Below are positions 45,482-64,000 of a stretch of DNA of 64,000 nucleotides, in pieces. A program made the position numbers and the translations under genes. Under the pieces are notes generated by a model that had not been told where the DNA came from, ran no database searches, and was given only the letters and a program-made list of their open reading frames with translations. How positions within the stretch are numbered: the first letter of the stretch is position 1; each line of letters begins with the position of its first letter. Origin of the DNA: Neotamlana sedimentorum (GTDB lineage: Bacteria > Bacteroidota > Bacteroidia > Flavobacteriales > Flavobacteriaceae); NCBI RefSeq assembly GCF_000943565.1, contig NZ_JTDW01000008.1, forward strand, positions 62,001 to 126,000, in the 5' to 3' direction.

Positions 45482-47020
45482 TTATTGTTTTTTTGTTTTA
45501 AAATTATATGCTTCAGGGTTATCGAAAAGACCAAATTCACGTTTTGTTAAATCTGCAGGGTCACCTACTTCTTTTATTAACTTTTCAAGCTCTTGTTGTA
45601 AATCTTCTTTTACATCTTTATAGTTTTCATCATCAATAAGATTTACTAACTCCCAAGGATCATTTTTAAGGTTGAATAATTGATAAGTGTAAACTTCTTT
45701 TTTAGCACTAACAATTAATTTAAAATCACCTTTTCGAACTGCTCTGTGCCCGCCGCCATTATTAATATTTGGGCGTGTTTTTTCACCTGGCCAAGAGTTA
45801 TAGGCGTAAAACATACTTTCTCTAACGGATTCTTTTTCACCTGTAATTACTGGGGTTAAATCTTCAGTTTGAATAGATTCTGGAATATCTAAGCCTGTTA
45901 AACCACAAAGCGTTGGGAATATATCGTGTAAATAAGCTAAAGCATTATTTTTTTGATTTTTTGGAATGTTTGGTCCACAAAACACCATTGGTACACTTAC
46001 ACTATGCTCGTAAACGTTTTGTTTACCTAAAAGCCCGTGTTGACCAAGCGCTAAACCATTATCTCCAGCCAAAACAATAATTGTATTTTCTGCTTTTCCT
46101 GAAGTTTCAAGCGCTTTTAAAATTCTACCTATTTGAGTATCAGTAGCTGTAATCATAGCATAATAATCTGAAATTTCTTTTTGAATTGCTTCTGGCGTTC
46201 TTGGAAAAGGAGCTAATACCTCGTCTCGAATTTTTTCGTCTGCTAATTCAAAAGGATGCTTAGGCATAAAGTTTTCTGGTAGCGCAATATCTGCTGCAGG
46301 GTACATGTCGTGATATTCTTGTGGTGCTGTTCTTGGATCGTGTGGAGCCGTAAACGCTACATACATTAAAAATGGTTTATCTTGTTTGTATGCATCAATA
46401 AAACCGACGGCTGCATCAGCAAATACTTCACTACTAAATTTTTCATCATTTTTATAAGGCTCAGACCAACCTGTTTCCGGAGAATAATCTTTTACTTTGG
46501 TACCAAAATGTCTTGTCATTCCTCCTAAGAATGCCGATTTTACATTTGTAAATCCGCGTTCTACCCACTGCTCACCATTATGTTGTTTCCCTGTTGCAAA
46601 AGTGGTGTAGCCATTGGCTTTAAAGTATTCCGGAAATGTTAATTTATTACTTATACCTTTATCTTCTTTATCAAAAGCAAACTGCGCATACACATTGGGT
46701 TCAATATTAAAATAGTGACGCCCTGTCATTAACATCGCTCTACTTGGCGAACAAACAGCGGCAGTAGTTGCACCTAAAATATAAGAATTAGTGAACGCCG
46801 TACCATTTTTAACGAGCTTATCCATATTTGGCGTTTGCACATTGTATTTATGCAATTCGTTGATGGTTCCGTTACGTTGATCATCAGTAAAAAGAAATAA
46901 AATATTTGGCATTTCTTTTTCTTCAGAAACTGCTTTTTCTTCTGCTTTTTCCTTACATGAATTAACACTTACAAAAAGTATTAAAACAAAAATTCTGATT
47001 AGGTTTTTAGTGTTGCTCAT
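45482..47020 (-). CDS. S1 family sulfatase lipoprotein
   Basis: A 512-residue sulfatase with a lipobox at Cys22 (VSVNSCKEK). The signature is C90-S-P-S-R94, with D46-D47 in 'FTDDQRN' and D-N-G in 'LAGDNGLALGQHGLLGKQ' as ligands. The D-D-Q-R-x-x-T-I start and the G-Q-H-G-L-L-G-K-Q segment resemble iduronate- or choline-sulfatase-like branches of S1 more than the arylsulfatase A-like branch seen in most neighbours. It lies between the DUF5703 protein gene (35 bp) and GH29 (9 bp). Confidence 0.92.
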   Translation of the reverse strand: MSNTKNLIRIFVLILFVSVNSCKEKAEEKAVSEEKEMPNILFLFTDDQRNGTINELHKYNVQTPNMDKLVKNGTAFTNSYILGATTAAVCSPSRAMLMTGRHYFNIEPNVYAQFAFDKEDKGISNKLTFPEYFKANGYTTFATGKQHNGEQWVERGFTNVKSAFLGGMTRHFGTKVKDYSPETGWSEPYKNDEKFSSEVFADAAVGFIDAYKQDKPFLMYVAFTAPHDPRTAPQEYHDMYPAADIALPENFMPKHPFELADEKIRDEVLAPFPRTPEAIQKEISDYYAMITATDTQIGRILKALETSGKAENTIIVLAGDNGLALGQHGLLGKQNVYEHSVSVPMVFCGPNIPKNQKNNALAYLHDIFPTLCGLTGLDIPESIQTEDLTPVITGEKESVRESMFYAYNSWPGEKTRPNINNGGGHRAVRKGDFKLIVSAKKEVYTYQLFNLKNDPWELVNLIDDENYKDVKEDLQQELEKLIKEVGDPADLTKREFGLFDNPEAYNFKTKKQ

Positions 47021-49377: not shown

Positions 49378-51009
49378 TTAGTGCTTCTTTTTAATGTTTT
49401 TCTTGTTTAAATATCTATTTAAATTTTCTTCATTTAAAGCATCACTGTCGCCGTATTTTTGTCTCATTCGCTCCAATTGTTCGTGCATATCTTTTTGTAC
49501 CGATGCATATTCTGGATTATCGTAAAGGTTATGCATTTCCTGTGGGTCTTTTTCTAAATCGTATAATTCCCATATATTAACATCGTAGTAGAAATGAATT
49601 AATTTATAGCGATCGGTTCTTACTCCATAATGGCGTTTTACTTTATGCTCGGCAGGAAATTCGTAGAATGTGTAATATAAAGCGTCGCGTAACTCGGTAA
49701 CTTCCCCGTTAACTAAACCTCTTAACGATTCACCTTGAATAGATTCATCAATAGCAATACCAGCATAATCTAAAAATGTAGGTGCAAAATCAATGTTTTG
49801 AACTAATTCATCAATTACAGTTCCTGGTTTAATTTCTTTTGGATATTTCATTAAAATAGGTGTTCTAAACGACTCTTCGTACATAAAGCGCTTATCGAAC
49901 CAACCGTGTTCTCCTAAGTAAAATCCTTGATCTGAAGTATAAACTACAATGGTATTTTCTTCTAATCCGTTTTCTTTTAAATAATCTAAAACCTGACCTA
50001 CACCATCGTCTACAGATTGAATAACTCTTAAATAATCGTGCATGTATCGATTAAATTTCCAAACGGCAAGCTCTTTTCCTTCTAAGTTTTGAGATTTAAA
50101 ATCTGCTATAATTGGGTCGTAATAGGCATCCCACGCCGCTTTTTGTTCATCGGTCATTCTATCGTACTTCTTTTGGAACATGCCACGGTATTTCGTTTTA
50201 ATATCTCCGTTTTTATCTAACATTTTTAAATCGTAAACCAAATCCATGTCTTTAAAAATGCTCATTTCTTGTGAAGCTGCTGCAGGTCTATCTTCGTAAT
50301 CATCAAAGAAATTAGCAGGCGGCACGAAGTTTACAGAATCTAAAAGTGTAAAATATTTTTCCTCTGGCATCCACGTTCTGTGTGGTGCCTTTTGGTGGTA
50401 CATTAAAAGAAAAGGTTTATCTTTTTCGCGTTTATTTTGTAACCAATCTAAAGCAATATCGGTTGTAACATGAGTAATGTAACCTGGATATGTTTTTTTA
50501 ACACCATTCTCGATAAAATCTGGAGAATAATACTGTCCTTGCCCCGGAAGTACATTTGAGTAATCGAACCCTTGAGGCAAACCATCTAAATGGATTTTAC
50601 CAACTAAAGCTGTTTGGTAGCCATTTTTTTGTAACGATTTTGCAAAGTTATCTTGATCCCAGTTAAACGGTTGTAAATTATCAACTTTACCATTTTTAAA
50701 ACTATGTTTACCTGTAAGAATGGCTGCTCTACTTGGCGCACATATAGAATTATTTACAAAACCTTTATTAAAAATAGCACCTTCGTTTGCAATTCTGTCA
50801 ATATTAGGTGTGTTGTTTAAACCATGACCATAAGCACTAATAGCTTGATACGCATGGTCGTCGCTCATTATAAAAACAATGTTTGGTTGTTTTGCGACTT
50901 CTGTTTCAACTGTTTTACTGGCTTTGTCGTTTTTACAGCCAACAAAAGCAAGTAGACAAAAACCGAGTAAATATGCTGGTATATTATGTTTTAAAGTAAA
51001 TTTTGACAT
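49378..51009 (-). CDS. S1 family sulfatase lipoprotein (paralogue of the 39653-41230 gene)
   Basis: A 543-residue sulfatase. I chose the Met at 51009 because it leaves an 8-bp gap after the symporter stop and gives a normal lipoprotein signal (Cys25 in AFVGCKND). The longer frame to 51048 would overlap the symporter by 31 bp. The formylglycine site is C90-A-P-S-R94. D50-D51-H52 and D-Q-G in 'YTSDQGFYLGEHGWFDK' match the sulfatase at 39653-41230. A GlcNAc-6-sulfatase-like role is plausible but unproven. It is the first enzyme gene after the symporter. Confidence 0.92.
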   Translation of the reverse strand: MSKFTLKHNIPAYLLGFCLLAFVGCKNDKASKTVETEVAKQPNIVFIMSDDHAYQAISAYGHGLNNTPNIDRIANEGAIFNKGFVNNSICAPSRAAILTGKHSFKNGKVDNLQPFNWDQDNFAKSLQKNGYQTALVGKIHLDGLPQGFDYSNVLPGQGQYYSPDFIENGVKKTYPGYITHVTTDIALDWLQNKREKDKPFLLMYHQKAPHRTWMPEEKYFTLLDSVNFVPPANFFDDYEDRPAAASQEMSIFKDMDLVYDLKMLDKNGDIKTKYRGMFQKKYDRMTDEQKAAWDAYYDPIIADFKSQNLEGKELAVWKFNRYMHDYLRVIQSVDDGVGQVLDYLKENGLEENTIVVYTSDQGFYLGEHGWFDKRFMYEESFRTPILMKYPKEIKPGTVIDELVQNIDFAPTFLDYAGIAIDESIQGESLRGLVNGEVTELRDALYYTFYEFPAEHKVKRHYGVRTDRYKLIHFYYDVNIWELYDLEKDPQEMHNLYDNPEYASVQKDMHEQLERMRQKYGDSDALNEENLNRYLNKKNIKKKH

Positions 51010-51017
51010 ATCAAATT

Positions 51018-52832
51018 TTATAAAATAGTTGTTCTTATTTTTTTCCAAACATTTTTAAGCAAAAATGCTGCAATTATAGCCACAATGGTTAACACAATTG
51101 CATAGCTGTAATCGCCATAAATCCAATAGCCTGTTGCGAACATACACGAGTAAATAAGCACACAACCTATTAACATTGCCGAAATTCCAGAAGGCACGCT
51201 CCAAGTTTCGTTCGTGTCCACAATTTCTACGCCATCTTTATTGGCTTCTTCAATAACTTTTGTCCATCCTGGTCCGCCAGGTTGTATTTTTTTGTAAAAA
51301 CCTTGTAAAACAGCTTTACTTTCTGGTTGCGTTAAGTAAGTCGCAGCTAACCAAATAGCAGTTGTAACAATAACTACAAATGGGTATTCTAGATAACTTT
51401 CAAACACACTATCTTCTGCTTTAAATAAAATATCGCCAACAGGTGTTAATTTTAAAAGAATAGAAATAATACCAGATGCAAACATGGCCGTAATTTCGCT
51501 CCACGCATTTATTCGCCACCAGAACCAACGTAGAATAAAAATTAATCCGGTACCTGCACCAAACACTAATAACAATTCGAATAATTGCAGCGCATTTTGT
51601 AGTAATAATGCCAGTAAAGCACTAACAACCATTAACACTACTGTTGATAAACGCCCCACTGCAACTAATTTTTTTTCTGAAGCATTAGGATTAATTTGTT
51701 GTTTATAAAAATCGTAAACCACATATGATGATCCCCAATTTAATTGTGTAGAAATGGTACTCATATAAGCCGCAATTAATGAAGCTAAAACCAAACCTAA
51801 TAAACCACTAGGTAATTTAGTTAACATGGCAGAATATGCTAAATCGTGACCTAACTTGTCGTCTGCAATATTTGGGAACGCCGCTTGAATGCTCTCTAAA
51901 TCTGGAAATACAACCAAAGACGCCAAGGCTACTAAAATCCATGGCCAAGGACGTAAGGCATAATGCATGATATTAAAAAAGAAGGTTGCACCAATGGCAT
52001 GGTTTTCGTCTTTTGCAGCTAACATACGTTGCGCAATGTAACCACCACCACCTGGTTCGGCTCCAGGATACCAAGAACTCCACCATTGTACAGCTAACGG
52101 AATTATAAAAAGTGTAATTAAAGCATCTTTATTTGTAAAATCTGGAAGAATAGACAACTTATCAACCACATTTTCGTTCGTCATAACAGCTTCTATACCT
52201 CCAACTTCTGGTAAATTAACCAAATAATAAGCAGCTCCAATAGCGCCACCCATAGCAACGAAGAACAAAATAAAATCGGTGTAAACCACACCTTTAAAAC
52301 CACCTAAGGCACTAAAAGCAACTGTAATTAAACCTGCGCTTACAACAGTTTGCCAAGGTTCTAACCCCAACATAATACCTCCAATTTTAATTGCAGCAAG
52401 CGTAACCGCAGACATGGTAATTACATTGAATATTACACCTAAGTAAATGGCTCTAAACTTTCTTAAAAAAGTAGCAGGCTTCCCGCCGTATCGAAATTCA
52501 TAAAATTCAATATCTGTATTCACATTCGATTTTCGCCATAATTTAGCATAAACAAAAACCGTTAATAATCCTGTAATTAAAAAGGCCCACCAAACCCAGT
52601 TTCCAGAAACGCCATTGGTTCTAACAATATCGGTTACTAAATTAGGTGTATCGGTTGAAAATGTTGTAGCAACCATGGAAACTCCAAGTAACCACCAAGG
52701 CATTGTTTTACCCGACAAGAAAAATTCCGAAGAACTTTTACCAGATTTTTTTGAAAGATAAACACCTATAGATAAGGTGATTGTAAAAAATAAAATAATG
52801 AGCGTGTAATCTAATGCGCTTAAAGAAACCAT
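51018..52832 (-). CDS. SSS-family sodium:solute symporter (copy 1)
   Basis: A 604-residue inner-membrane carrier of the sodium:solute symporter family (SLC5-like, LeuT fold), with about 13-15 hydrophobic segments. The 'F-F-L-S-G-K-T-M-P-W-W' segment after the first helix and 'A-A-Y-M-S-T-I-S-T-Q-L-N-W' in the middle are typical of the sugar-transporting branch. The region 'E-F-Y-E-F-R-Y-G-G-K-P-A' follows the third helix. It is the first gene after the 480-bp break and so probably heads unit B, importing the monosaccharides its enzymes release. The sugar cannot be named from sequence. Confidence 0.92.
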   Translation of the reverse strand: MVSLSALDYTLIILFFTITLSIGVYLSKKSGKSSSEFFLSGKTMPWWLLGVSMVATTFSTDTPNLVTDIVRTNGVSGNWVWWAFLITGLLTVFVYAKLWRKSNVNTDIEFYEFRYGGKPATFLRKFRAIYLGVIFNVITMSAVTLAAIKIGGIMLGLEPWQTVVSAGLITVAFSALGGFKGVVYTDFILFFVAMGGAIGAAYYLVNLPEVGGIEAVMTNENVVDKLSILPDFTNKDALITLFIIPLAVQWWSSWYPGAEPGGGGYIAQRMLAAKDENHAIGATFFFNIMHYALRPWPWILVALASLVVFPDLESIQAAFPNIADDKLGHDLAYSAMLTKLPSGLLGLVLASLIAAYMSTISTQLNWGSSYVVYDFYKQQINPNASEKKLVAVGRLSTVVLMVVSALLALLLQNALQLFELLLVFGAGTGLIFILRWFWWRINAWSEITAMFASGIISILLKLTPVGDILFKAEDSVFESYLEYPFVVIVTTAIWLAATYLTQPESKAVLQGFYKKIQPGGPGWTKVIEEANKDGVEIVDTNETWSVPSGISAMLIGCVLIYSCMFATGYWIYGDYSYAIVLTIVAIIAAFLLKNVWKKIRTTIL

Positions 52833-53312: not shown

Positions 53313-55544
53313 TTATTTCAGGTTAATTGTTAGATGTCCGCCTTCAACCAAATTGGAGTGATTTACAAAGTATCCTGAATGAGACTTTCCATTTAACTGA
53401 ATAGTATTGATTTTACCACTAGAATCTCCAGTTTTTTCTATTACAAGTTGTTTTCCTTTGTAGTAAGCATCATCTAATTCAATGGTAATTTTATCGAACA
53501 TTGGTGCTGTAATCGTATAAAATGGTTCGCCAGGTGAAATTGGATAAATTCCCATCATGCTATAAATTACCCAAGCAGACATGGTTCCGGTATCATCATT
53601 CCCAGGTAAACCATCCGGAGTATTCTTAAAATATTGATTTACCAATTGCTTAACTAATTTTTGACTACGCCATTCTTCATCTTTAACATAATTAAATAAA
53701 AACGGGTAACCTATATCTGGCTCGTTAGCCATATCGAATTGATTAGAATCGAATACTTTTTCTAATTGATTTACAAATTGCTTTTTACCACCCATAAGCT
53801 TTATCAACCCTTTGGTATCGTGAGAAACCATAAATGAGTATTGCCACGAATTCCCCTCGATAAAACCAATATTTTCGGCAAAATTTGCACCTGCCAACGG
53901 ATCGAAAGGCTCGTACCAAGAACCATCTGGGTTTTTAGGGTGTAATAATTTTAAATTTTTATCATATAAATTTCTATATGAAAAAGCTTGCTTATAAAAG
54001 CGTTTGTAATCGTCTTTTTTCCCTAATGCTTTTGCTAAAAGCGAAATGGAATAATCTGTAATATTGTACTCTTGTGTTGTAGATACCGAACCTCGATTTT
54101 GTGTTGTTAAAAATCCGTTAGACCAATATTCTTTTACTCCTGGACGTAATGGATTATCTTCTAACTGTGTCGCACTTTTGCGCATGGCTTCATAGGCCTT
54201 TTCAACACCGAAATCTGTAATTCCTTTTAAATACGTATCGGTTAAAATAATTCCCGCAGGATCACCAACCATAGTTGTGGTTTCGGTAGCATTTAATTCC
54301 CACTTTGGCAACCAGCCGCTTTCATCGTAAATATTAAGCATGCTTTTTACCATGTTAGATTGCTGCTTCGGGTACACTAAAGACATCAACTGATGTAAAT
54401 TTCTGTAGGTATCCCAAAACGAAAACACAGTAAATCGAGTTCCTTCGGTTTTTAAAGTTTCCCGTGTGGCCATACTTGGATATTCCCCATTATAATCGTT
54501 TAAAGTATTTGGGTGAATAAGTGTATGATAGAGCGCCGTGTAAAACACCGTTTTATCATCTTCGCTACCACCTTCAACTTTAATTTTCGATAATAAGTTA
54601 TTCCATTGTGAAGACGTATTTTTATAAACCGTTTCGAAGGTTTGGTTTTCGGTTTCCTTTTCAAGGTTTTCCCTTGCATTTTCAATACTCACATATGAAA
54701 CGCCTACTTTAACCTCAACCTGAGTAGGTTCAGAAAAATTATATTTAAAATAACTACCAATGCTATCGCCAACAACCTCTTTTTTGTAGCCCTTCATTAT
54801 TCTGGTTTTACCATTGTAGGTCATCCATTCAGCTTCAACACCTTTATAGATTCTTGGTTTTCGCCAAACACCAAACTCATCGGCAGGCTTACTAAATTTC
54901 GCCACGAAATAAACTGGGTAATTTTCTTCGGGTTTGTAATAGCAAAACGAACCTACCGTTCGCATACCTTCAATTTCTGTTGGTGATACAACTTTTATTG
55001 AAGCACCTTGCTCGTTAGTTAAACCTAAACCCAAATTAAGTAAAATATTAGCTTCGCCTTTTGGGAAACTATATCTTGAAATACCAACTCTTGTAGATGC
55101 TGTGGTTTCAACCTTAATATTGTACTTATTTAAAACCGTACTATAATAACCCGCTTTTGCAACTTCATTTTTATAAATACTTCCATATTTTAAATGATTT
55201 GTTTCAAGCGCTCCAGTTGTTGGCATGAGTAGAATAACGCCTAAATCTGGACAACCAACTCCACTTAAATTTACATGCGAAAACCCTGTTAAAAAGGTGT
55301 TTTCGTGTACATAAGGATTAGACAACCAACGGCTGTCTTTTTCTAATTTATTTTGTTTTCCAGAAACATTAAAAGGAGATACACTGGCCATACCACGAGG
55401 CGCAATGGCTCCCGGATTTGTAGCTCCAAAATTTGATGTTCCAATAAATGGGTTCACATACGTAGTGCACTCTTGTGACACTACGCGCGAACCACAAAAC
55501 ATAAAATAAACTAAAAATAAAACTGTTAAAAACTTAAATCTCAT
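53313..55544 (-). CDS. GH92 alpha-mannosidase (copy 3)
   Basis: A 743-residue GH92 enzyme with an N-terminal export signal (cleavage near 'VVSQE' or lipidation at Cys17). The opening 'Y-V-N-P-F-I-G-T', F-I-E-G-N-S-W-Q-Y with the likely acid Glu, and G-N-D-D ending at Asp651 are present. Where copies 1 and 2 read H-x-N-E-P-x-H-H this copy reads A-N-E-P-D-I-G-Y-P, suggesting a different subsite and linkage. It is the last gene of unit A, 13 bp after GH20 copy 3, and fits trimming of high-mannose branches before the asparaginase acts. Confidence 0.93.
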   Translation of the reverse strand: MRFKFLTVLFLVYFMFCGSRVVSQECTTYVNPFIGTSNFGATNPGAIAPRGMASVSPFNVSGKQNKLEKDSRWLSNPYVHENTFLTGFSHVNLSGVGCPDLGVILLMPTTGALETNHLKYGSIYKNEVAKAGYYSTVLNKYNIKVETTASTRVGISRYSFPKGEANILLNLGLGLTNEQGASIKVVSPTEIEGMRTVGSFCYYKPEENYPVYFVAKFSKPADEFGVWRKPRIYKGVEAEWMTYNGKTRIMKGYKKEVVGDSIGSYFKYNFSEPTQVEVKVGVSYVSIENARENLEKETENQTFETVYKNTSSQWNNLLSKIKVEGGSEDDKTVFYTALYHTLIHPNTLNDYNGEYPSMATRETLKTEGTRFTVFSFWDTYRNLHQLMSLVYPKQQSNMVKSMLNIYDESGWLPKWELNATETTTMVGDPAGIILTDTYLKGITDFGVEKAYEAMRKSATQLEDNPLRPGVKEYWSNGFLTTQNRGSVSTTQEYNITDYSISLLAKALGKKDDYKRFYKQAFSYRNLYDKNLKLLHPKNPDGSWYEPFDPLAGANFAENIGFIEGNSWQYSFMVSHDTKGLIKLMGGKKQFVNQLEKVFDSNQFDMANEPDIGYPFLFNYVKDEEWRSQKLVKQLVNQYFKNTPDGLPGNDDTGTMSAWVIYSMMGIYPISPGEPFYTITAPMFDKITIELDDAYYKGKQLVIEKTGDSSGKINTIQLNGKSHSGYFVNHSNLVEGGHLTINLK

Positions 55545-55557
55545 TAAAAACTAATAA

Positions 55558-57894
55558 TTAATCTATTAAAATTTCATCCATAAATATCCAAGCTTCTTTA
55601 ACTTCTATATCGCTTTTATCGATTTTAGCCTCAACCTTTATATATCTGGCTTTTTGTGCTTTAAAATCAATACTAAAATCTTTTAATTCAGGTTCATCAT
55701 CTACCTTAAACGGTTTTTTAATTTTACCAACTTCTGTGAAGTTTTCGTTATCATGAGATAGTAAAACCTTTATTTCTGTTGGGTAATAAACACTATTTTT
55801 TTGGTTTACCATGCTCCCAATAATCACTTTGCTTATATTTTTTTCTTCACCTAAATCTACAACAACTTTAGCGTCTTTATTTAACCAAGCTTGCCATCTG
55901 CCATCGCGAAAATCTTTACTACCACGTAACGTATTTACTAAATTAAAGGCATGAGAACCTTGATACCTTTCATGATAATTAGTCAAATAATCTACCTTAC
56001 TCGCAACACCTTCATGAAACGTAATTGTTTCTTTAAACACATGATTTATTGGTTTATCTGCTTCAAATAAACTCGCTTTAATTGCTGTTGTTCTATTTAC
56101 AACAATAGGTTTTGTAAACGGAATGGCTTCAGAATTTAAATCCGCATCGTTTAAAACATATCTTATATCTGAGTCTGGGAATTCATTCTGTAATGTTATT
56201 GCTACCGATTTACTCTGAATATCTGTTTTTACTTTAGAATTAATAATATAGGCGCTTTTTGCATAATTTACATCTAAATATTCAAATCTGTTCATGATGC
56301 TTTTTAAACGTACTGAAAAATCATTCCAATTTCTTGATTCTTTTGGACTCCAAAGCGTTTCAGATAAAGCTGTTAATCTTGGAAAAATCATGTATTGCGA
56401 ATGTTCTTCGGTAGGAATATGTTCTGCCCAAACGTTGGCTTGTCCGCCTAAAATATGTTTTTCTTCTTCTTGAAAAAGTTCTCCAACAATAGGCTCGAAT
56501 TGATATACTTTGCTAACTGTAGTAACTGGTCCTGCCGCTTTTGGCTCTAAATCTGGTGTACCTTGATAATAATCGAAATAGCAATAACCAACCGGAGACA
56601 TAATAGCATCATTACCATGTTTTGCTGCTTCAATACCGCCTTTTACACCACGCCAACTCATTACTGTAGCTTCTGGTGCTAAACCACCTTCTAGAATTTC
56701 ATCCCAACCAATTAGTTTTTTTCCTTTAGAATTGATGAATTTTTCAATTCGTTTTATAAAGTAGCTCTGTAATTCTTCAACATTTTCAAGCTTTTCTGCT
56801 TTAATTCTTTTTTTACAATGTGGGCAAACTTCCCAATTGGTTTTAGTCGCTTCATCTCCACCAATATGAATGTATTTAGAAGGGAATATATCCATTACTT
56901 CCAACAGTACATTTTCTAAAAACTCAAAAGTAGATTCTTTTCCCGCACAGTAAATATCTGTAATTGGCCATAAGGCTCCAGAAGGCACTGCAATTTGTTC
57001 ACCATGACAAGATAACTCTGGATACGCGGCAATAGCGCTCGACACATGCGCAGGCATTTCTATTTCTGGAACAACCTCAACACCTTTTGTAGCGGCATAG
57101 GCTACAATTTCTTTTAAGTCTTCTTGAGTTAAAAAACCGCCGTAAGTTCCTTTGTCATCAGGATTATTATCTTCTCTAGCATTCCATAGTAAATGTTCTT
57201 GATCTACTCTCCACGCACCAATTTCGGTTAATTTTGGATATTTTTTAATCTCTATACGCCAGCCCTGGTCATCAACTAAATGCAAATGCAAAATATTCAT
57301 TTTGTGCAATGCCAGCATATCAATAGTTTCTTTAATATAATCTTTACCAAAGAAATGACGCGATACGTCTAGCATTAATCCGCGCCACTTAAATCGCGGA
57401 CTGTCCGTTATTTGAACATTTGGAATTTCCCAATCGATGTTTTTAATAAGCGTATCACTTTCTATTTCAACAGGTAGCAACTGCCTTAAACTTTGAATAG
57501 CGTATAAAAACCCTGAAGCACTTGATGCTTTTAAAACAACATGGCTTGTACTAGCATTAATTGTATATGCTTCTTGTTCTAAACTGTTATCTAATGCTAA
57601 TGAAATGTAATTTGAAGTAGGCGTTTTTGCTGTAATTTTTAAATTCCAATTGGCAGCATTATTAAATTTATCGATGAGTAGTTTAACAGCCTGTTTTTGC
57701 TCTTCATTCGACACAACAAACACCGTGTTTTCATTAAACTGAAATACACCTTCTGTAATATTTAAATGTGCAACTTTGGGAATAATATTTACATCGGCTT
57801 CCGTATAAACCTTAGCTGATTTTTCTTGGCATGAGTTTAAAAGGATACCTACAGTAAACAGAACAAAAAAAGATATGTGTGATGCTTTTTTCAC
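55558..57894 (-). CDS. GH20 beta-N-acetylhexosaminidase with F5/8C-like domain (copy 3)
   Basis: A 778-residue exo-hexosaminidase with a lipobox at Cys22 (LLNSCQEK). The GH20b domain leads into the barrel, with Asp347-Glu348 in H-I-G-G-D-E. The tail after residue 640 has 'D-G-R-W-Q-A-W', 'V-V-V-D-L-G' and 'A-R-Y-I-K-V-E-A', marks of a discoidin (F5/8 type C, CBM32-like) carbohydrate-binding domain. It follows the glycosylasparaginase gene by 10 bp, suiting stepwise removal of GlcNAc from N-glycans. Confidence 0.94.
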   Translation of the reverse strand: MKKASHISFFVLFTVGILLNSCQEKSAKVYTEADVNIIPKVAHLNITEGVFQFNENTVFVVSNEEQKQAVKLLIDKFNNAANWNLKITAKTPTSNYISLALDNSLEQEAYTINASTSHVVLKASSASGFLYAIQSLRQLLPVEIESDTLIKNIDWEIPNVQITDSPRFKWRGLMLDVSRHFFGKDYIKETIDMLALHKMNILHLHLVDDQGWRIEIKKYPKLTEIGAWRVDQEHLLWNAREDNNPDDKGTYGGFLTQEDLKEIVAYAATKGVEVVPEIEMPAHVSSAIAAYPELSCHGEQIAVPSGALWPITDIYCAGKESTFEFLENVLLEVMDIFPSKYIHIGGDEATKTNWEVCPHCKKRIKAEKLENVEELQSYFIKRIEKFINSKGKKLIGWDEILEGGLAPEATVMSWRGVKGGIEAAKHGNDAIMSPVGYCYFDYYQGTPDLEPKAAGPVTTVSKVYQFEPIVGELFQEEEKHILGGQANVWAEHIPTEEHSQYMIFPRLTALSETLWSPKESRNWNDFSVRLKSIMNRFEYLDVNYAKSAYIINSKVKTDIQSKSVAITLQNEFPDSDIRYVLNDADLNSEAIPFTKPIVVNRTTAIKASLFEADKPINHVFKETITFHEGVASKVDYLTNYHERYQGSHAFNLVNTLRGSKDFRDGRWQAWLNKDAKVVVDLGEEKNISKVIIGSMVNQKNSVYYPTEIKVLLSHDNENFTEVGKIKKPFKVDDEPELKDFSIDFKAQKARYIKVEAKIDKSDIEVKEAWIFMDEILID

Positions 57895-57904
57895 TAAAAT
57901 AAAT

Positions 57905-58915
57905 TTATTTTTTCTTTATTTTAAATCCTGCATCTTCCATACGATTACCGTTTTCTTTATCGTAAACGGCATAATTAAAACCAGGTCTTATACTATAACC
58001 GGCATGTTCGCCTTTTTTATTAACCGCAATAAAACCAACTTGTAAATAGGCCATATCTTTATGGTTTTTATGCTTATTGTAAATGCGTTCTACAATTTCT
58101 TTACAAGCTTCGTAAGGCGATTTTCCTTGGCGCATTAACTCTACAACCATGGCACTTCCGGCGGTTCGTATTACAGCTTCACCTAAACCGGTTGCTGCAG
58201 CTGCACCAACTTCATTATCTAAAAATAAGCCGGCTCCAATAATTGGCGAATCGCCTACTCTACCATGTAATTTCCAAGCCGCTCCACTGGTAGTACAACC
58301 ACCAGAAAGATTGCCTTCTTCATCTAAAACCAACATACTTATTGTATCGTGATTTTCAATATTTATTACCGGTTGATATTTCGATTTTTCTAACCATTTT
58401 TCCCAAGATTCTTTAGATTTATCGGTTAGTAAATTTTCTTCTTTAAACCCTTTTTCTAAAGCAAATTGTAGGGCACCTTTACCGGTAAGCATAACGTGTG
58501 GCGTTTCGTCTAAAACTTTTTTTGCCACTGCTATTGGGTGTTTTATGCCTTGTAAAAAAGACACCGAACCGCAATCGCTATTCTTATCCATAATACAAGC
58601 ATCAAGCGTTACTTTACCTTCACGATCTGGTAATCCACCGTAGCCCACACTACGTACATCTGGATCGGCTTCTGGAACACCTACACCGGCAACAATAGCA
58701 TCTAAAGGTGCCGCACCGTTGTTTAACTGTTTCCAGGCTTCTTCGTTTGCAGCTAAACCATGTCTCCATGTAGAAATTACCAAAGGTTTTTTTACTGGTT
58801 TTGCTTTTGAAGTGTTTTTATTCGCTTCCGCGGAAGCTGAAAAACTACTTAACAAAGCACTTAAACCAACAGTTCCTAAGGCCGTATTTTTAATAAATTT
58901 TCTTCTACTAGACAT
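57905..58915 (-). CDS. N4-(beta-N-acetylglucosaminyl)-L-asparaginase (glycosylasparaginase)
   Basis: A 336-residue N-terminal nucleophile hydrolase that cuts the bond between asparagine and the first GlcNAc of N-glycans. Autocleavage is expected at Asp190|Thr191 in 'N-H-D-T-I-S-M-L', making Thr191 the nucleophile. 'C-T-T-S-G', 'G-R-V-G-D-S-P-I-I-G-A-G' and 'E-V-G-A-A-A-A-T-G' match the family closely, with the substrate-binding Arg219 and Asp222. The N-terminus has a twin-arginine signal (S-R-R-K-F-I-K), so the folded enzyme should be exported by Tat. It is the strongest pointer in the window to glycoprotein N-glycans as substrate. Confidence 0.93.
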   Translation of the reverse strand: MSSRRKFIKNTALGTVGLSALLSSFSASAEANKNTSKAKPVKKPLVISTWRHGLAANEEAWKQLNNGAAPLDAIVAGVGVPEADPDVRSVGYGGLPDREGKVTLDACIMDKNSDCGSVSFLQGIKHPIAVAKKVLDETPHVMLTGKGALQFALEKGFKEENLLTDKSKESWEKWLEKSKYQPVINIENHDTISMLVLDEEGNLSGGCTTSGAAWKLHGRVGDSPIIGAGLFLDNEVGAAAATGLGEAVIRTAGSAMVVELMRQGKSPYEACKEIVERIYNKHKNHKDMAYLQVGFIAVNKKGEHAGYSIRPGFNYAVYDKENGNRMEDAGFKIKKK

Positions 58916-58927
58916 GATAAATAGACT

Positions 58928-60046
58928 TTATTCTTTTGAAGCTTTTATAATTTCGAATTGCTCATCAGTCATATGATAATCATCAAAAAATGCAACACCA
59001 CTTGCGCCATTATCTTTAGCGTATTGAATGGCATCTTTTAAATCTTCATTACTTAATTTTGGTGTATATAAACCTGTGTGTAATTCGGTTGATTTTCCTT
59101 GTAAATCTTCTACACCTTGTTTTGTAGCATAACCAATCCAATCTAATTCTTCGTTGTAGAAGTTGTAATAAATCATTGGTAAAACCATATCTATATTCCA
59201 TTTATCCCAACGCTGACGCACCATATGATCTGCCATTTCTGGATAAGGAAATACTGCGGCACTTAATTTCTTATCGTGTTTATGCACAATGTCATAAGCT
59301 TCATTTACTAACGAACGAATTTCGTTTAAACGGAAGTTTTTCCACTCGATATCGATAGCTGGGTTTTCCATTTTACGAGGGTCTTTATGATGTAAAGCCA
59401 TAAACTTATTTACACTAGCATCAGAATAATCGAAATCGTAATCAGGTAATTCTTCTTCTTGTTTTAAATCGTATTTTGGTAATAAACCAATTGGTAAATA
59501 TACATCTGGATAACGTATATAATCTAAATGTACACTAGCAACACCTTCTACTTTTGCTAAACCTTCAACAAGACTTAAAATGTGCTTTCTGGCTTCTGGG
59601 TGACTTGGTGATAACCATTGGTAATACCCAACGTATGGTCGTTCTTCCTTTTTAAAACAAGATTTACCACTGCGGCTTACCATGTACCAATCTGGATGTT
59701 GTTGCGCTATAGAATCGCCAGGTCTGTTTGTTGTAAACATCCACGCATGTACTTCTAATCCTGCTGCTGTTGCTAAAGGCGTTAAACGTTTTAATAAACC
59801 TGGATCTGCTCCTGTGTTTAATAAAACAGCATCAATACCTTTACTTTTTAATTTATTGAAGTGTGCCGTGTAGGCTGAATCTGATTTTTTATGACCAACC
59901 GACATCCAGTTCCAATACTTAAAAGTTTTAGTAGTTTCTTCTGTAGTTGTTGTAGCAACAGGTTCTTCTGAAGCGGTTTCTTTAGTAGCTTGATTGCATG
60001 ATACTATTGAAAGTACCAATCCAAAAAGTGCTATTTTAAGTTTCAT
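58928..60046 (-). CDS. Lipoprotein with GH10-like/GHL TIM-barrel domain
   Basis: A 372-residue lipoprotein (Cys17 in LSIVSCNQ) with a Thr/Glu-rich linker up to about residue 40. The rest reads as a TIM barrel: 'G-I-D-A-V-L-L-N', 'V-H-A-W-M-F', 'V-H-L-D-Y-I-R-Y-P' and 'D-M-V-L-P-M-I-Y-Y-N-F' are marks of the GHL10/DUF187-type glycosyl-hydrolase-like superfamily. No substrate can be assigned. It is packed between the CBM9 gene (13 bp) and the glycosylasparaginase gene (12 bp), so a role on the glycan core or peptide-linked product is a reasonable inference. Confidence 0.75.
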   Translation of the reverse strand: MKLKIALFGLVLSIVSCNQATKETASEEPVATTTTEETTKTFKYWNWMSVGHKKSDSAYTAHFNKLKSKGIDAVLLNTGADPGLLKRLTPLATAAGLEVHAWMFTTNRPGDSIAQQHPDWYMVSRSGKSCFKKEERPYVGYYQWLSPSHPEARKHILSLVEGLAKVEGVASVHLDYIRYPDVYLPIGLLPKYDLKQEEELPDYDFDYSDASVNKFMALHHKDPRKMENPAIDIEWKNFRLNEIRSLVNEAYDIVHKHDKKLSAAVFPYPEMADHMVRQRWDKWNIDMVLPMIYYNFYNEELDWIGYATKQGVEDLQGKSTELHTGLYTPKLSNEDLKDAIQYAKDNGASGVAFFDDYHMTDEQFEIIKASKE

Positions 60047-60059
60047 AAGGTTAATTTTA

Positions 60060-61130
60060 TTATTTGGTTATAAATTTTCCGTTTTGATTTACTATTAAAG
60101 TTTTTCCTGAAAAAGGGCTAACAATTGAAAGGTTAAAACCTGTACTATGATTCTCTAATTTTGGAACCACCGCCTTATCATCAATTTTTATGCCTTTTTG
60201 AGTTAAACTATCAATAGATTTAAAATATTCGTTGTTTTTTTTAAAATGTGCGATTTGCTTTCTGTACATGCTATATAATTCCCACTTAATTTTTTCATCT
60301 GAAGTTATATTGAAAGCATCTTTTGCTCCCGCTTCTTTTGATGAAAAATATACATAACCCCATTTTTCTGGTTCGTGCATGTTAACTACACCCATTGGCG
60401 ACCAAACCCAATTGTACTCGTGTAACAACTTCCCTTTGTCATCACGTTTTCTTTCGTACTTACCATCTTTAATTTGGTAATCCCAATTAACTCTTGAGAA
60501 GTTAACTCGCCAAAATGAATCTGTTGGAACGTTTTTATGGAAATAGCCTTTTTTATAAGCCTTCCAAGGAATAGCAAGTTCTAATACCCAACCTTCATCG
60601 GTATCTTTAGGATTGTTTAGTGTTCCGTTAACTTTAACAGCCGATTTTAAACCAGTGATATTCCAATCGTTTAAAACCACATTATTTTTTCTGTAAGGTT
60701 GACTAACAAATAAATCCCAGGCTGTGTTTAATGCGTTAATCTCTAATTCGTAATAATTATGAGTATCGCCATCTGGATCTATAAACACCTCAAAATCATT
60801 ATTATGAAAAATTATAGTATCTCTTTTGGTTAACGTTGCCCATACATGAGGTTCTTCGAGCTGTGCTAAAATATAATAGTACTTATCGTCCCACAACATT
60901 TTAACTTTTGTTTTATATTTTGGCTGTTTAACACCTTCAATATCTATAAAAGTATCGCTCCAGTCTACCTTACTCCAAGCAGCATCATTAGCTTCACCAT
61001 CAATTTGTATTGGTGCGCTCGTTTTATAAGCAATATAACTTTTTGGTGCCTTGTTTTCTTTACTTTGCGAACAACCTAAAGCAGACACTACACCAAGAAT
61101 TAAAACGAATATGTGCTTTTTTAACTTCAT
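60060..61130 (-). CDS. CBM9-like carbohydrate-binding lipoprotein
   Basis: A 356-residue lipoprotein (Cys20 in SALGCSQS). Residues of about 35-215 form a CBM9-like beta-sandwich: 'I-D-G-E-A-N-D-A-A-W', 'V-K-M-L-W-D-D-K-Y-Y-Y', 'N-D-F-E-V-F-I-D-P-D-G' and 'E-L-E-I-N-A-L-N-T-A-W-D'. No catalytic motif is evident. It probably holds glycan at the cell surface or in the periplasm for unit A enzymes. The 40-bp gap to GH130 is the widest within unit A. Confidence 0.82.
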   Translation of the reverse strand: MKLKKHIFVLILGVVSALGCSQSKENKAPKSYIAYKTSAPIQIDGEANDAAWSKVDWSDTFIDIEGVKQPKYKTKVKMLWDDKYYYILAQLEEPHVWATLTKRDTIIFHNNDFEVFIDPDGDTHNYYELEINALNTAWDLFVSQPYRKNNVVLNDWNITGLKSAVKVNGTLNNPKDTDEGWVLELAIPWKAYKKGYFHKNVPTDSFWRVNFSRVNWDYQIKDGKYERKRDDKGKLLHEYNWVWSPMGVVNMHEPEKWGYVYFSSKEAGAKDAFNITSDEKIKWELYSMYRKQIAHFKKNNEYFKSIDSLTQKGIKIDDKAVVPKLENHSTGFNLSIVSPFSGKTLIVNQNGKFITK

Positions 61131-61170
61131 TTAATATTGTTTTTTTGAGATACTGAAACAAATTCAGCAC

Positions 61171-62136
61171 CTAAAGGCTATTGTTTTTTGTAAAGGCAAC
61201 CACCTCGCTTAGTTTACCGAATGCCATGGCTACCACAGTATCTGCAGCTCCGTAATAAACCGCTAACTTATCTTCTTTTTCATCATGCAATGCTGCACAA
61301 GGAAAAACAACATTAGGTACATCGCCATTTTGCTCGTAATTTACTGCCGGACCTAATAAATAAGGTTGCGTTCTGTATTTTACTTTATCGGGTTCATTTT
61401 CATCTAAAAGTGCTGCTCCCATGGCGTATCTAAATCCGTTGCAGGTATTTATTACTCCATGATATAACATTAACCAACCTTCATTTGTTAAAATAGGAAT
61501 AGGTCCTGCCCCTATTTTTGTGCATTGCCAAGCACTATCTTCAAAATTAGCCGCTTTCATTACACAACGGTGTTCTCCCCAATATTTCATATCTGGGCTG
61601 TAGCTAATGTAAATATCGCCAAAAGGTGTATGTCCGTTATCACTTGGTCGACTTAACATAGCGTATTTTCCATTTATTTTTTTTGGAAACAACACACCAT
61701 TTCTGTTAAATGGTAAAAATGCATTTTCGCATTGGAAAAACTTTTTAAAATCGAAAGTATAACCAATACCAATCGTTGGTCCATGATAACCGTTACACCA
61801 AGTTATCCAATATCTATCTTCGATAAACACAACACGTGGGTCGTATTTATAGGCAGACTCAATCATTTCTGTATTTCCTTCTTGAAATACGATAGGTTCG
61901 TGCTCTATATCCCAATTGATACCATCTTTACTAAAGCCTGCAAAAATATTCATTTGCACCGCTTTATTATCACATCTAAAAACACCTGCAAAACCATCTT
62001 CAAAAGGCACTACGGCACTATTAAAAACACTGTTTGATGTTGGTATAGCATACCTATCTATTATAGGGTTTTCGCTATAACGCCACATAACATCGTTACA
62101 ATTTTCTGGCTTATCCTGCCAAGGCATTTTACTCAT
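61171..62136 (-). CDS. GH130 beta-mannoside phosphorylase
   Basis: A 321-residue cytoplasmic protein without signal peptide, of the five-bladed propeller family GH130. '[16 protein letters not shown]' near residues 39-54, 'Y-D-P-R-V' around 98-102 and 'Y-H-G-V' / 'Y-Y-G-A-A-D' near the end are family marks, including the catalytic Asp of D-P-R. GH130 enzymes phosphorolyse Man-beta-1,4-GlcNAc, Man-beta-1,4-Glc or mannobiose to mannose-1-phosphate. With the neighbouring glycosylasparaginase and GH92, Man-beta-1,4-GlcNAc from the N-glycan core is the likeliest substrate, though this is inference. It follows the symporter gene by 13 bp, linking uptake to phosphorolysis. Confidence 0.9.
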
Positions 62137-62149
62137 AATCTGTATATTA

Positions 62150-64000
62150 TTAATCTTTATATTGTTTTACTTTATCTAACCAAGTGAATTTTAAAATAAC
62201 TGTTGTTATTATAAATACTATAAAGGCCATCCACATTTTTGGATAATCTCTTATCATGAAATAAATGGGTAACAAAATCATACTCGATTGCCACACGATT
62301 CCTACTACACAATTTAACATATCGCTTAAAAAACTTGTGTTTTTCTCGAATGTTTCGTCTTCACTTTTTAATGCTTTAAAAACAGGCCCCCAGAAACCCC
62401 AAGGTTTTACGTTTTTGTAAAACGATTTTAAGGTTTGCATATTTGTTGCCGGTGTTAATAAGGTTCCTAAAAACGAACCTAACAAAGACACTACAAAAAT
62501 AATAGGAAACATGTAAATTGCAGGTATTTGTGCTAATTCAAACAACCATGTTCCTTCTGTGAAATTAGCTTTATTTTGGTCTAACAAAAACTGCAAAGTT
62601 GCAATAAATAAGCCTGAGGTCATTCCCCAAAAATATCCCCAACCATTAAAACGCCACCAAATCCACTTTAAAAAGTTTGCGGCTACATAACCTCCATATA
62701 AGGCACTTGTAATCCATAGCGTAATAGAGTTAATAGAATCTGCAAAAAAGCCCATTATAACACCCAAGGTTACTACTGCAAAAGATGCTATGTGACTTGC
62801 TTTTATATAATGTTTACTAGATGCGGTTGCATTGTAGTATTTTTTGTAAATATCATTTACAATATATGCCGGACTTGAATTAACAAAAGCTGAAAATGTA
62901 GACATAAAGGCCGCTAATAAGCCTGCTAAAAGTAGTCCTTTAATACCTACAGGAATATGATTATTGATAACTTTAGGCAAAATAACTTCAAGCTCGCTTA
63001 AGTTTGCACCGCCATTTGCTATCATATCTGGAGCACAATAAACTAGAGCCAAAACTACTACGCCACCAATTAATAAATAACGTGGAATAAATAGAATAAT
63101 ATTAGTAAAACCACTCATGTAAGCCGCTTCTTTTACCGTTCTTGTAGATAAAATACGCTGCATGTCGTATCCTGGTGTTGGTCCTGCAATACTAGCAAAA
63201 AAACCTTTAAATAAAGACATCCCTATAAAAGCACCGAACATTTTATAGCCTTGTGTATCTATTAAACTATTAAAAGCTTCATATTTACCAGACCAAGAAC
63301 CTTCGAGCTCTGAGCCAAACATTATATTACTCCACTCGGGTGAAATAACATTATATATTTGAACATCGGTTACCGTAACAAAAGCATAAATAGCTATTAA
63401 AATACCGGCTAACACCATGATTCCGTACTGTAACACTTCGGTAGCTACAACAGAAAACATACCACCTTTAATGGTATAAATTGTTGTTAATAAAATAATT
63501 ATTAAGGCATAAGATTGATCGGAAGTTAGTAATACACTTTCATTTAAAACTAAGCTTACATCCCAAGGTAAAATAACGGTCATGAATTTACCAACGCCTT
63601 CAAAGAAATATGCTATAAAACCAATAGAAGCAACAACTGCAAATACAGCAACAATTAAATGTGAAGCTCTCCCTGCTTTATCGTCTCCAAAACGTGTTAA
63701 AATCCATTCGGAACCTGTCATTATATTCGATCGACGAATCCATGCCGCGAGGAAAATCATCACAAAAATTTGATTCCAAATAGGCCACATCCACATAAAC
63801 ATGAAACTTTTGGCTCCATATAAAAACAGAATACCAACCATCCAAGCTGTTCCAGATACATCGAACATACCAGAACCATTACTTAAACCTAAGTAATACC
63901 ATTTTATACTTTTACCACCGAGAAAATAATGATCTAACCCTTGAGACGCTTTTTTAGACACCCAAATACCAACTCCTAGAGTAAGCAGAATGTATAACGC
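62150..64000 (-). CDS. SSS-family sodium:solute symporter (copy 2, partial at window edge)
   Basis: An inner-membrane sodium symporter of the SSS family. A GTG at 63961 is not the true start: the frame stays open to the edge and adds 13 residues ([13 protein letters not shown]) that form part of the first helix, so the start lies outside the window. The visible 616 codons include '[11 protein letters not shown]', '[12 protein letters not shown]' and many hydrophobic segments. It resembles copy 1 in design and heads the visible part of unit A, presumably importing mannose-containing disaccharides or monosaccharides for GH130. Confidence 0.92.

Follow-up and report, generated by a model that had tools for sequence, protein, structure and literature searches.

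At the end of the window, by which we mean the whole 64,000-nucleotide stretch of Neotamlana sedimentorum DNA that was analysed, lies unit A, a run of minus-strand genes with 10–40 bp between neighbours (Table 1). The first gene of the operon is a second GH92, which lies just beyond the window edge; further upstream are two sulfatases, a LytTR two-component pair and one divergent SusC/SusD pair (L006:10046-15086, about 5.8 kb above this GH92 gene), and no SusC or SusD was found among the ORFs scanned in the window. A sequence-only reading had described glycosylasparaginase (AGA), GH20, GH92 and GH130 genes lying back to back behind a symporter. All of these are present, on the minus strand and where it placed them, but they are not strictly contiguous, because genes for a GHL10 protein and a CBM9-like protein separate AGA from GH130. 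That reading had omitted both of these genes, as well as the second GH92 outside the window. AGA has a twin-arginine-type leader and GH20, GHL10 and CBM9 have lipoprotein-type leaders, as read by eye from the N-terminal sequences; GH130 has no leader and is predicted to be cytoplasmic, as proposed earlier.

Table 1 Features of unit A and of proximal unit B. Coordinates are window positions unless a locus is named; counts out of 80 refer to the best 80 of 187 AGA loci.
Feature	Coordinates	Strand	Matches and relatives
Second GH92, operon start, just outside window	L006:2027-4276		
SSS carrier (SSF)	62150..64000, runs on to 64027; full gene L006:150-2027	-	PF00474 89.5 bits
GH130 mannoside phosphorylase, no leader (cytoplasmic)	61171..62136	-	PF04041 234 bits; Uhgb_MP 4udg 509 bits
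CBM9-like lipoprotein, conserved GHL10 partner	60060..61130	-	PF06452 52 bits
GHL10 (glycosyl hydrolase-like 10) TIM-barrel lipoprotein	58928..60046	-	PF02638 43.9 bits (cut-off 27.9); PF13200 39.4 bits (cut-off 27)
Glycosylasparaginase (AGA), Tat-type leader, D190/T191	57905..58915	-	PF01112 (Asparaginase_2) 220 bits; 3ljq 407 bits
GH20 beta-hexosaminidase, F5/8-type C domain, lipoprotein-type leader	55558..57894	-	PF00728 408 bits; nearest solved 6q63 beta-hexosaminidase 522 bits
GH92 alpha-mannosidase, downstream copy	53313..55544	-	PF07971 530 bits, PF17678 213 bits; nearest solved 6f8z 382 bits
Second SSS carrier, head of unit B	51018..52832	-	PF00474 118 bits; only 1/80 loci (L010)
S1 sulfatase related to GlcNAc-6-sulfatase, proximal unit B	49378..51048	-	7p24 mucin-desulfating sulfatase 620 bits, 9s03 putative sulfatase 553 bits, 5g2v N-acetylglucosamine-6-sulfatase 541 bits; orthologues 74-96% identical in 15/80 loci
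DUF5703 protein, proximal unit B	47056..49356	-	PF18961 193 bits; orthologues beside unit A in L011, L015, L017
S1 sulfatase, proximal unit B	45482..47020	-	PF00884 172 bits; orthologues 71-99% in 12/15 sulfatase-type loci
GH29 alpha-L-fucosidase, proximal unit B	43856..45472	-	PF01120 265 bits; orthologues 75-98% in 12/15 sulfatase-type loci

Conservation of the operon

We compared unit A with flavobacterial AGA loci, taking the best 80 of 187 by AGA similarity and labelling their genes by top BLAST matches to a fixed query set rather than by full annotation; all counts out of 80 below refer to this set. A six-gene core of GH92, SSS, GH130, CBM9, GHL10 and AGA was complete in 76 of the 80 loci, and its order and strand were kept in 74, an arrangement far beyond chance. 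The SSS gene lay immediately before GH130 in 77 loci, and two of the three exceptions are truncated where the available stretch ends; CBM9 was present in all 80 and GHL10 in 79. A strain of F. johnsoniae is among the carriers of the operon (L089). A GH130-first search, which is independent of AGA similarity, recovered SSS in 11, CBM9 in 11, GHL10 in 9 and AGA in 7 of 12 other genera, leaving five of these loci lacking AGA. Across the phylum, 82 of 148 genomes had an AGA-type match at E <= 1e-30, the weaker of which resembled isoaspartyl peptidases. Among 20 of these loci examined (about 1.5 kb on each side), only three, our own included, showed operon genes, and AGA by itself is not diagnostic of the operon.

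Outside the core, PNGase F and/or GH18 genes occur in relatives, many of which also carry one or the other of two further types, sulfatases or beta-galactosidases. An S1_11-like sulfatase occurred in 15 of the 80 loci and beta-galactosidase-type genes (GH2 or GH35) in 48 others, with zero overlap; we propose that these enzymes serve the outer sugars. GH29 types were found in many of the 80 and a PMI-type isomerase in two. Many loci end soon after the last GH92 (42 of the 80 extend more than 1.5 kb past it), so counts of genes beyond that point are lower bounds. The earlier proposal that unit A works with the sulfatases and fucosidases of unit B is supported only for proximal unit B (the sulfatases at 45482 and 49378 and the GH29 at 43856), which is syntenic in 12 to 15 of the 80 loci. 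This tie is weakened by a sample of 120 genera, in which the nearest relative of the GH29 (72% identity, G158) is encoded in a genome lacking GH130, and GH130 accompanied GH29 in only 4 of 12 other GH29-bearing genera.

Predicted substrate of the operon

The unit A asparaginase scored 407 bits against a true glycosylasparaginase (3ljq) and at most 120 bits against isoaspartyl peptidases, and on these scores an isoaspartyl peptidase identity was rejected. The D190/T191 self-cleavage site that had been read from the sequence is indeed present, and both residues, like the predicted substrate contacts W50, R219 and D222, are unchanged in all 81 aligned AGA sequences. His52 is also invariant in this group, whereas the Elizabethkingia glycosylasparaginase has Phe at that position. 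AGA is thus a glycosylasparaginase by sequence and is predicted to act on GlcNAc-Asn. For GH130, the closest solved protein was the N-glycan phosphorylase Uhgb_MP (over residues 4-320, nearly full length), followed among distinct solved matches by a mannooligosaccharide phosphorylase at 456 bits. Its D99, invariant in 80 aligned sequences, would correspond to Asp104 of Uhgb_MP if that chain has a 20-residue tag. The three GH130 equivalogs listed in NCBIfam, none of them for Man-GlcNAc, all scored far under cut-off.

A further clue comes from relatives. In 11 of the 80 loci, a PNGase F-family gene lies directly 3' of the last GH92, and in three of these it separates unit A from the sulfatase-fucosidase block. 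The one protein of the 11 that was scanned matched PF09112 (186 bits), PF09113 (179 bits) and 3ks7, 'Putative PNGase F' (398 bits); the others are 58–94% identical to it, and the PF09112 profile matched the genomes of 5 of the 11 loci. In our own genome, profile searches for PNGase F, PNGase A and GH163 found nothing, and the clinching gene is therefore known only from relatives. As for a PNGase F remnant at window positions 52001-54500, tblastn returned chance-level pieces only (best E 0.18). The predicted enzymes acting on the GlcNAc-Asn bond are thus the AGA family member in the window and, in 11 of 80 relatives, a PNGase F-family protein. The PNGase F-family gene in the same operon of relatives, together with the scores of GH130 and AGA, supports the earlier suggestion of an N-glycan module, and unit A is very likely the core of a PUL-type operon that degrades asparagine-linked glycans.

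Two other substrates were weighed. Sulfated algal alpha-mannan or glucuronomannan is an improbable target: marine flavobacterial loci with GH92 and sulfatases are assigned to such mannans in the available portions of PMC6298971 and PMC6794258, mannose 6-sulfate is desulfated by an S1 subfamily 11 enzyme (PMC13063451, available portion) and the solved proteins 5g2v and 7lj2/7lha, which are named for that subfamily, are close to the neighbouring sulfatase, but no obvious part in degrading such a mannan is seen for AGA, GH130, GH20 or PNGase F, and 65 of the 80 loci contain no sulfatase-query match within the available stretch. It is very improbable that unit A is a beta-mannan locus in which GH130 phosphorolyses mannobiose. 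GH130 phosphorylases do occur in beta-mannan loci of Muricauda and relatives (PMC9860051, available portion), and the second-best solved match of our GH130 agrees with such a role, but this reading leaves AGA and PNGase F unaccounted for. The beta-mannan loci described in that portion hold GH26, GH27 and a putative GH5; no GH26, GH5 or GH27 Pfam match was found in the genes scanned, from the window up to C51:160000.

The core cut and the GHL10–CBM9 pair

If asparagine-linked glycans are the substrate, the glycan or glycopeptide would enter the periplasm, perhaps through the upstream SusC/SusD pair. Sulfatases, GH29, GH20 and several GH92 enzymes, to judge by their families, would remove sulfate, fucose, terminal GlcNAc and alpha-mannose. 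The remaining Man-beta-1,4-GlcNAc-beta-1,4-GlcNAc-Asn core would be cut between its two GlcNAc residues, for which GHL10, aided by CBM9, is the candidate; the products of such a cut would be precisely the predicted substrates of GH130 (Man-GlcNAc) and AGA (GlcNAc-Asn). Exported AGA would then split GlcNAc-Asn, and the SSS carrier, because of its fixed position beside GH130, is the putative importer of Man-beta-1,4-GlcNAc, which cytoplasmic GH130, given its family and catalytic Asp, would phosphorolyse to mannose 1-phosphate and GlcNAc. Of the enzymes that the operon encodes in our own genome, we tentatively favour GHL10 for this cut, given its presence in 79 of the 80 loci, the amino-sugar and N-glycan families near some of its non-operon relatives, and the GH18 that takes its slot in L035 (see below). 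It is possible, and somewhat doubtful, that the GHL10–CBM9 pair represents a new type of endo-beta-N-acetylglucosaminidase (ENGase) that supplies GH130 and AGA, with the SSS protein a dedicated Man-beta-1,4-GlcNAc importer.

GHL10 membership follows from PF02638 above its curated cut-off and the TIM-barrel fold; D175, Y176, R178 and D181 are invariant in 116 sequences. Sequence comparison gave no convincing link to solved structures. A Foldseek search with the model (mean pLDDT 77.6) gave 575 matches at E <= 0.001, led by Cwp19 of C. difficile (5oq3, E 1.3e-12, TM 0.57-0.60, rmsd ~7), which was found by fold comparison only, has 14% identity in the Foldseek alignment and is closely followed by other TIM-barrel enzymes such as beta-amylase (8.6e-11). 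E. coli DigH gave a profile match (probability 94.9, 157 columns) that is limited to the first half and takes in the leader. Cwp19 and DigH act on peptidoglycan, as do the GHL10 proteins characterised in the available portions of PMC6016235 and PMC12288456. A Deinococcus enzyme that acts on starch is reported in a paper mentioning GHL10 (PMC9967864), so the family may not be confined to GlcNAc polymers. The Pfam scan at E 0.001 matched the protein to PF02638 and PF13200 only and not to the ENGase families GH18, GH85 or GH163; it may thus function like an ENGase but is not classified as one.

Phylum-wide, we used 27 of 28 GHL10 matches from other genomes, leaving out the G119 match at a contig end. 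In 20 of these 27 loci the starts of CBM9 and GHL10 were no more than 2.3 kb apart. Amino-sugar or N-glycan families occurred in the 20 kb surrounding GHL10 in 10 of 25 non-operon loci and in none of 20 control windows (positions picked arbitrarily on the contigs that carry the loci, in 20 of the 27 genomes). One genus alone supplies four of the ten positive loci, which represent seven genera in all, and the p-value of 0.001 therefore treats them as more independent than they are. In a tree of a thinned set, 28 operon sequences and one non-operon sequence (L112) formed a split with support 1.0, and the operon sequences alone formed no clade. Eight loci (L115-L121, L123) have the CBM9–GHL10 pair without other query families. 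Those neighbours of the pairs whose N-termini were read look like housekeeping genes.

A GH18 gene with a T9SS-type secretion tail (L007:123-1586), about 16 kb upstream of unit A, could instead encode the enzyme for the core cut. It is the sole PF00704 match in the genome, reached 27.2 bits with the GH85 profile in the genome search (cut-off 22.2; absent from the Pfam scan listing) and 21.1 bits with the EndoS profile, under cut-off. A separate GH85 enzyme was rejected, as the only GH85 match in the genome is this same GH18 gene. In relatives, GH18 occupies the GHL10 slot in L035, the only one of the 80 loci to fit a clean exchange; GHL10 is retained in 16 of 17 GH18-bearing loci of the 80, which argues against such an exchange. 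L187 is a loose second case, with GH18 (234 bits) at the operon end and neither GHL10 nor AGA, and the GH130 operon of L185 has neither GHL10 nor GH18 within view.

There is close to an even chance that the operon degrades N-glycans with GHL10 not as the core cutter, a reading that departs from ours only at the core cut and shares in the confidence placed in the operon as a whole. AGA, or PNGase F in relatives, could free the whole chain, with Man-GlcNAc2 imported and GH130 acting as a mannosyl-chitobiose phosphorylase; chitobiose is listed as an acceptor for Uhgb_MP in the available part of PMC8950772, but because GH20 has a lipoprotein-type leader, the cytoplasmic chitobiose made by GH130 would require another enzyme. 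Alternatively, the GH18 protein could cut the core outside the cell, as its secretion tail, its standing as the only PF00704 match and its GH85 score would allow, but its operon mates (GH3, a SIS-domain protein, an SSS carrier, NamZ and SusD/SusC types) point to a MurNAc or peptidoglycan role. In either case GHL10 would serve peptidoglycan or another GlcNAc polymer, consistent with the cleavage of peptidoglycan by its characterised relatives and with the eight solitary pairs among housekeeping-like neighbours, but not readily with its retention in nearly all of the 80 operons.

Relation to known systems

Algae, plants and animals are rich in N-glycoproteins, whose turnover beyond the animal gut has, to our knowledge, received little genetic description. 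The conserved operon offers a marker for this process in flavobacteria, gives AGA a catabolic context and names candidates for the core cut (GHL10) and for Man-GlcNAc import (SSS). If GHL10 does cut the chitobiose core, it would provide a new tool family for glycan release. In the BT1033 cluster of Bacteroides thetaiotaomicron, reportedly described by Nihira in 2013, a GH130 Man-GlcNAc phosphorylase is said to work with GH92 and GH20 on N-glycans, alongside an MFS carrier and a GH18 endo-glycosidase. Unit A has an SSS carrier, AGA and the GHL10–CBM9 pair, whereas the BT1033 cluster reportedly has the MFS carrier and GH18.

The sequence-only reading had regarded such a combined system as unfamiliar, which does not hold: many flavobacteria share the core, and clusters resembling it have been published (PMC6794258, PMC6298971). 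In the Bacteroides plant N-glycan loci of PMC9522356, a PNGase occurs with GH92, GH29, GH3 and GH130 in linked loci; this system differs from unit A in comprising several loci with SusC/D, and the word 'asparaginase' has 0 occurrences in the available text. N-glycosylated glycoproteins, algal ones included, were suggested as the target of the GH92-rich loci of PMC6298971, the available portion of which links GH130 to beta-mannan and makes no argument from asparaginase, PNGase F or GHL10. The available portion of PMC6794258 describes sulfatase-free loci with GH92, GH130, GH20 and GH18, sometimes with CBM9, in Formosa, Polaribacter, Aurantivirga and the NS5 group, and assigns them to alpha-mannose-rich substrates; 'n-glycan', 'asparaginase' and 'pngase' each have 0 occurrences there, and GHL10 and SSS are not mentioned. 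These loci are very probably of the same operon type as unit A. Clusters of GH92, GH130, GH20, GH18 and CBM9 have thus already been published as 'alpha-mannose-rich' loci, of which unit A is a variant, and our results suggest that some loci filed under that heading are N-glycan loci.

Gene order and conservation of unit A

We recovered the gene order and families of unit A, the minus-strand row of N-glycan-type genes, in the 3.96-Mb genome that holds contig C51, of which the window spans C51:62001-126000. In transcription order, the unit comprises GH92, a sodium/solute symporter-type (SSS) carrier, GH130, a CBM9 lipoprotein, a glycosyl hydrolase-like 10 (GHL10) lipoprotein, glycosylasparaginase (AGA), GH20 and GH92, with intergenic gaps of 10–40 bp in the part within the window. 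The sequence-only reading had named the enzymes correctly but overlooked CBM9 and GHL10, and the upstream GH92 lay beyond its view. Upstream of the unit are two sulfatases, a LytTR system of histidine kinase and response regulator in divergent orientation, and a SusC/SusD pair; unit B, the sulfatase and fucosidase block, begins 480 bp below it.

Positions of features in and around the cluster (L006 and L007, fetched flank above the window; other L and G numbers, loci and genomes compared)
Feature	Position	Strand	Remark
First GH92 of unit A	L006:2027-4276	minus	beyond window edge
Glucosamine-6-phosphate isomerase/PIG-L deacetylase fusion	L006:15206-17134		adjoins SusC/SusD pair; homologues near CBM9–GHL10 in several distant genomes (L122, L124-L126, L131, L137)
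GH18 gene row	L007:123-11918 (C51:144123-155918)		GH18 is T9SS-tailed
Sulfatase	49378-51048
DUF5703 protein	47056-49356		sub-threshold GH95 catalytic match; beside unit A in L011, L015, L017
Distal unit B	4988-43837		21 genes: GH92, GH20, GH95, GH30, GH3, sulfatases, others
560-residue gene in unit B	7272-8954		zero Pfam/NCBIfam matches at E 0.001
Eco57I/MmeI-type methylase	1671-4937	opposite	far cluster end
GH130-like fragments, Flavivirga sp. 57AJ16	L055:7554-7746		short tblastn fragments only
L112	G130:C2:528500-548499

An AGA search of genome contigs yielded 187 relatives, and we retained the best 80; going by their titles, these are flavobacterial genera or MAGs, one of them called [Flexibacter]. 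Among these best 80 of 187 loci, the core GH92–SSS–GH130–CBM9–GHL10–AGA was complete in 76 and kept its order and strand in 74. AGA and CBM9 were present in all 80, GH130, GHL10 and the upstream-type GH92 in 79 each, SSS in 78 and GH20 in 71, and SSS immediately preceded GH130 in 77. To avoid AGA bias, we also searched for GH130 first, in one genome per genus across 120 genera of the family. GH130 was present in 13 genera, own genome counted, and the 20-kb stretches at the other 12 carried SSS and CBM9 (11 each), GHL10 (9) and AGA (7, all with GHL10). AGA-type matches at E ≤ 1e-30 occurred in 82 of 148 phylum genomes, the weaker ones resembling isoaspartyl peptidases, and 17 of the 20 such loci examined had no operon genes within ~1.5 kb; the operon is thus marked by its gene combination rather than by AGA alone. 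The operon is kept in Flavivirga sp. 57AJ16 with only short GH130-like fragments in it, as if the phosphorylase had been lost, and that of Yeosuana aromativorans (L037) has two GH130–CBM9 pairs in succession.

Enzyme identities and substrate class

AGA matched glycosylasparaginase at 407 bits across the mature length, compared with 120 bits for isoaspartyl peptidases. As predicted, it has a self-cleavage site, with an Asp-Thr pair invariant in 81 sequences; the presumed substrate contacts are likewise invariant, with one departure from the Elizabethkingia enzyme, which has Phe where His52 stands in all 81. The nearest solved relative of GH20 is 6q63 (522 bits), which we take to be BT0459, and that of GH92 is 6f8z. 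BT0459 is described as cleaving chitobiose (PMC9522356). The best match of GH130 is Uhgb_MP (509 bits), followed by a mannooligosaccharide phosphorylase (456 bits); a review table assigns mannosyl-chitobiose phosphorylase activity to Uhgb_MP and Man-GlcNAc phosphorylase activity to BT1033 (PMC8950772). By sequence, the GH130 of unit A is a candidate Man-GlcNAc or Man-GlcNAc2 phosphorylase.

In 11 of the best 80 of 187 loci, a PNGase F-family gene of ~392 residues lies directly 3' of the last GH92. The copy in L021 matched PF09112 (186 bits) and PF09113 (179 bits) and, among solved structures, 4qhb (403 bits) and 3ks7 'Putative PNGase F' (398 bits), with classical PNGase F reaching only 22 bits; the other ten are 58–94% identical to it. 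In two Mariniflexile and Flavobacterium sp. UMI-01 (L012, L016 and L018), the gene sits between unit A and the sulfatase–GH29 block. PNGase F acts on the GlcNAc–Asn bond of N-glycans, so this neighbour fixes the substrate class better than any window gene. The PNGase F profile had no match in the own genome; in 15 other genomes, it scored E below 1e-50 in eight and weakly in two more. These relatives' operons, together with the AGA and GH130 matches, support the earlier proposal, and unit A is well supported as an N-glycan breakdown operon.

The suggestion that these N-glycans are sulfated and fucosylated stood in part. Orthologues (74–96%) of the sulfatase at 49378 follow unit A in 15 of the best 80 of 187 loci, 12 of which also carry a GH29 43856 orthologue (75–98%). 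By title, the 15 are Tamlana, Mariniflexile, Flavivirga, Cellulophaga, Polaribacter, Algibacter, Formosa and Flavobacterium sp. UMI-01, largely marine or seaweed-associated genera. The 120-genus sample, however, speaks against a close coupling: relatives of this GH29 were found in 12 other genera, only four of which have GH130, close by only in G160, and the nearest (72%, G158) is in a genome without it. The best match of the sulfatase at 49378 is a mucin-desulfating sulfatase, with a GlcNAc-6-sulfatase near. Its subfamily, 11, includes a mannose-6-sulfate sulfatase (PMC13063451), making sulfated mannose as possible a substrate as sulfated GlcNAc. GH2 or GH35 type genes occur in 48 other loci of the best 80 of 187, with zero overlap with the sulfatase loci; this can readily be seen as a single system in two forms, each suited to N-glycans with different caps, although the split mostly tracks genus and is not independent evidence. 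Only two of the 21 distal unit B genes, GH3 41243 (L014) and sulfatase 39653 (L020), lie beside unit A in a relative, in stretches that reach only about that far. The DUF5703 protein may be an uncharacterised glycosidase.

Candidates for the core cut

GH130 would require Man-GlcNAc (or Man-GlcNAc2) and AGA GlcNAc-Asn, and a single endo cut between the two core GlcNAc residues would yield exactly these. Profiles for PNGase A and GH163 had no own-genome matches, weak negatives given that in controls GH163 rang below cut-off only and PNGase A in one archaeon only. GHL10 is the sole glycosidase-fold protein of the operon without an assigned step. The closest fold to its model (pLDDT 77.6) is Cwp19, followed by other TIM barrels, and its profile aligns with E. 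coli DigH over the first half of GHL10. This likeness is one of fold and profile, whereas the substrate of both is peptidoglycan: Cwp19 is reported as a lytic transglycosylase (PMC6016235) and DigH as degrading denuded glycans (PMC12288456). All 116 sequences compared share GHL10 D175, Y176, R178 and D181; from the motif and the published Cwp19 account (PMC5765458), D175-Y176 are probably the counterparts of Asp196-Tyr197.

This type of GHL10 was found in 29 of 148 phylum genomes, with CBM9 within 2.3 kb in 20 of the 27 non-own loci fetched. Leaving out two unit-A loci, amino-sugar or N-glycan families (GH20, GH18, NagB type, GH92, GH29, GH3, NamZ) surrounded it in 10 of 25 loci but in none of 20 control windows (p = 0.001, Fisher); the ten loci come from seven genera, one of which contributes four, and the p-value thus overstates independence. 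In L035, a GH18 (Pfam score 297) occupies the GHL10 slot. Yet 16 of 17 GH18-bearing loci carry GHL10 too, and eight loci have CBM9–GHL10 pairs without other query families; for these reasons we consider GHL10 a tentative candidate for the GlcNAc–GlcNAc cut, and lean against it. A rival is that the own genome's single GH18, ~16 kb upstream, makes the cut instead; when the genome was searched with the GH85 profile, it scored 27.2 bits, above the cut-off of 22.2. The operon around it also holds GH3, a SIS-domain protein, an SSS carrier, NamZ and SusD/SusC types and resembles a locus for amino sugars or peptidoglycan fragments. The same SusC/D type recurs beside CBM9–GHL10 pairs in other families. 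The stretch viewed at L112 has CBM9, LytTR/HK, SusC/SusD and a GHL10 65% identical to that of the window, branching inside the operon group, with neither AGA nor GH130.

Relation to known N-glycan loci

Among the titles and abstract starts listed in a literature search, with subscription papers mostly outside it, there was no description of this operon with AGA and no N-glycan activity ascribed to GHL10, an absence that is not proof. The word 'asparaginase' appears 0 times in a review of bacterial N-glycan breakdown (PMC10154615). What is new here and open to test is how the core is cut and what the near-invariant GHL10–CBM9 pair does. The combination as such, which the sequence-only reading had considered unfamiliar, has relatives: N-glycoproteins have been suggested as the target of GH92-rich loci (PMC6298971), and sulfatase-free GH92/GH130/GH20/GH18 loci, some with CBM9, have been called alpha-mannose-rich (PMC6794258). 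The unit A system is a conserved flavobacterial variant among known N-glycan loci.
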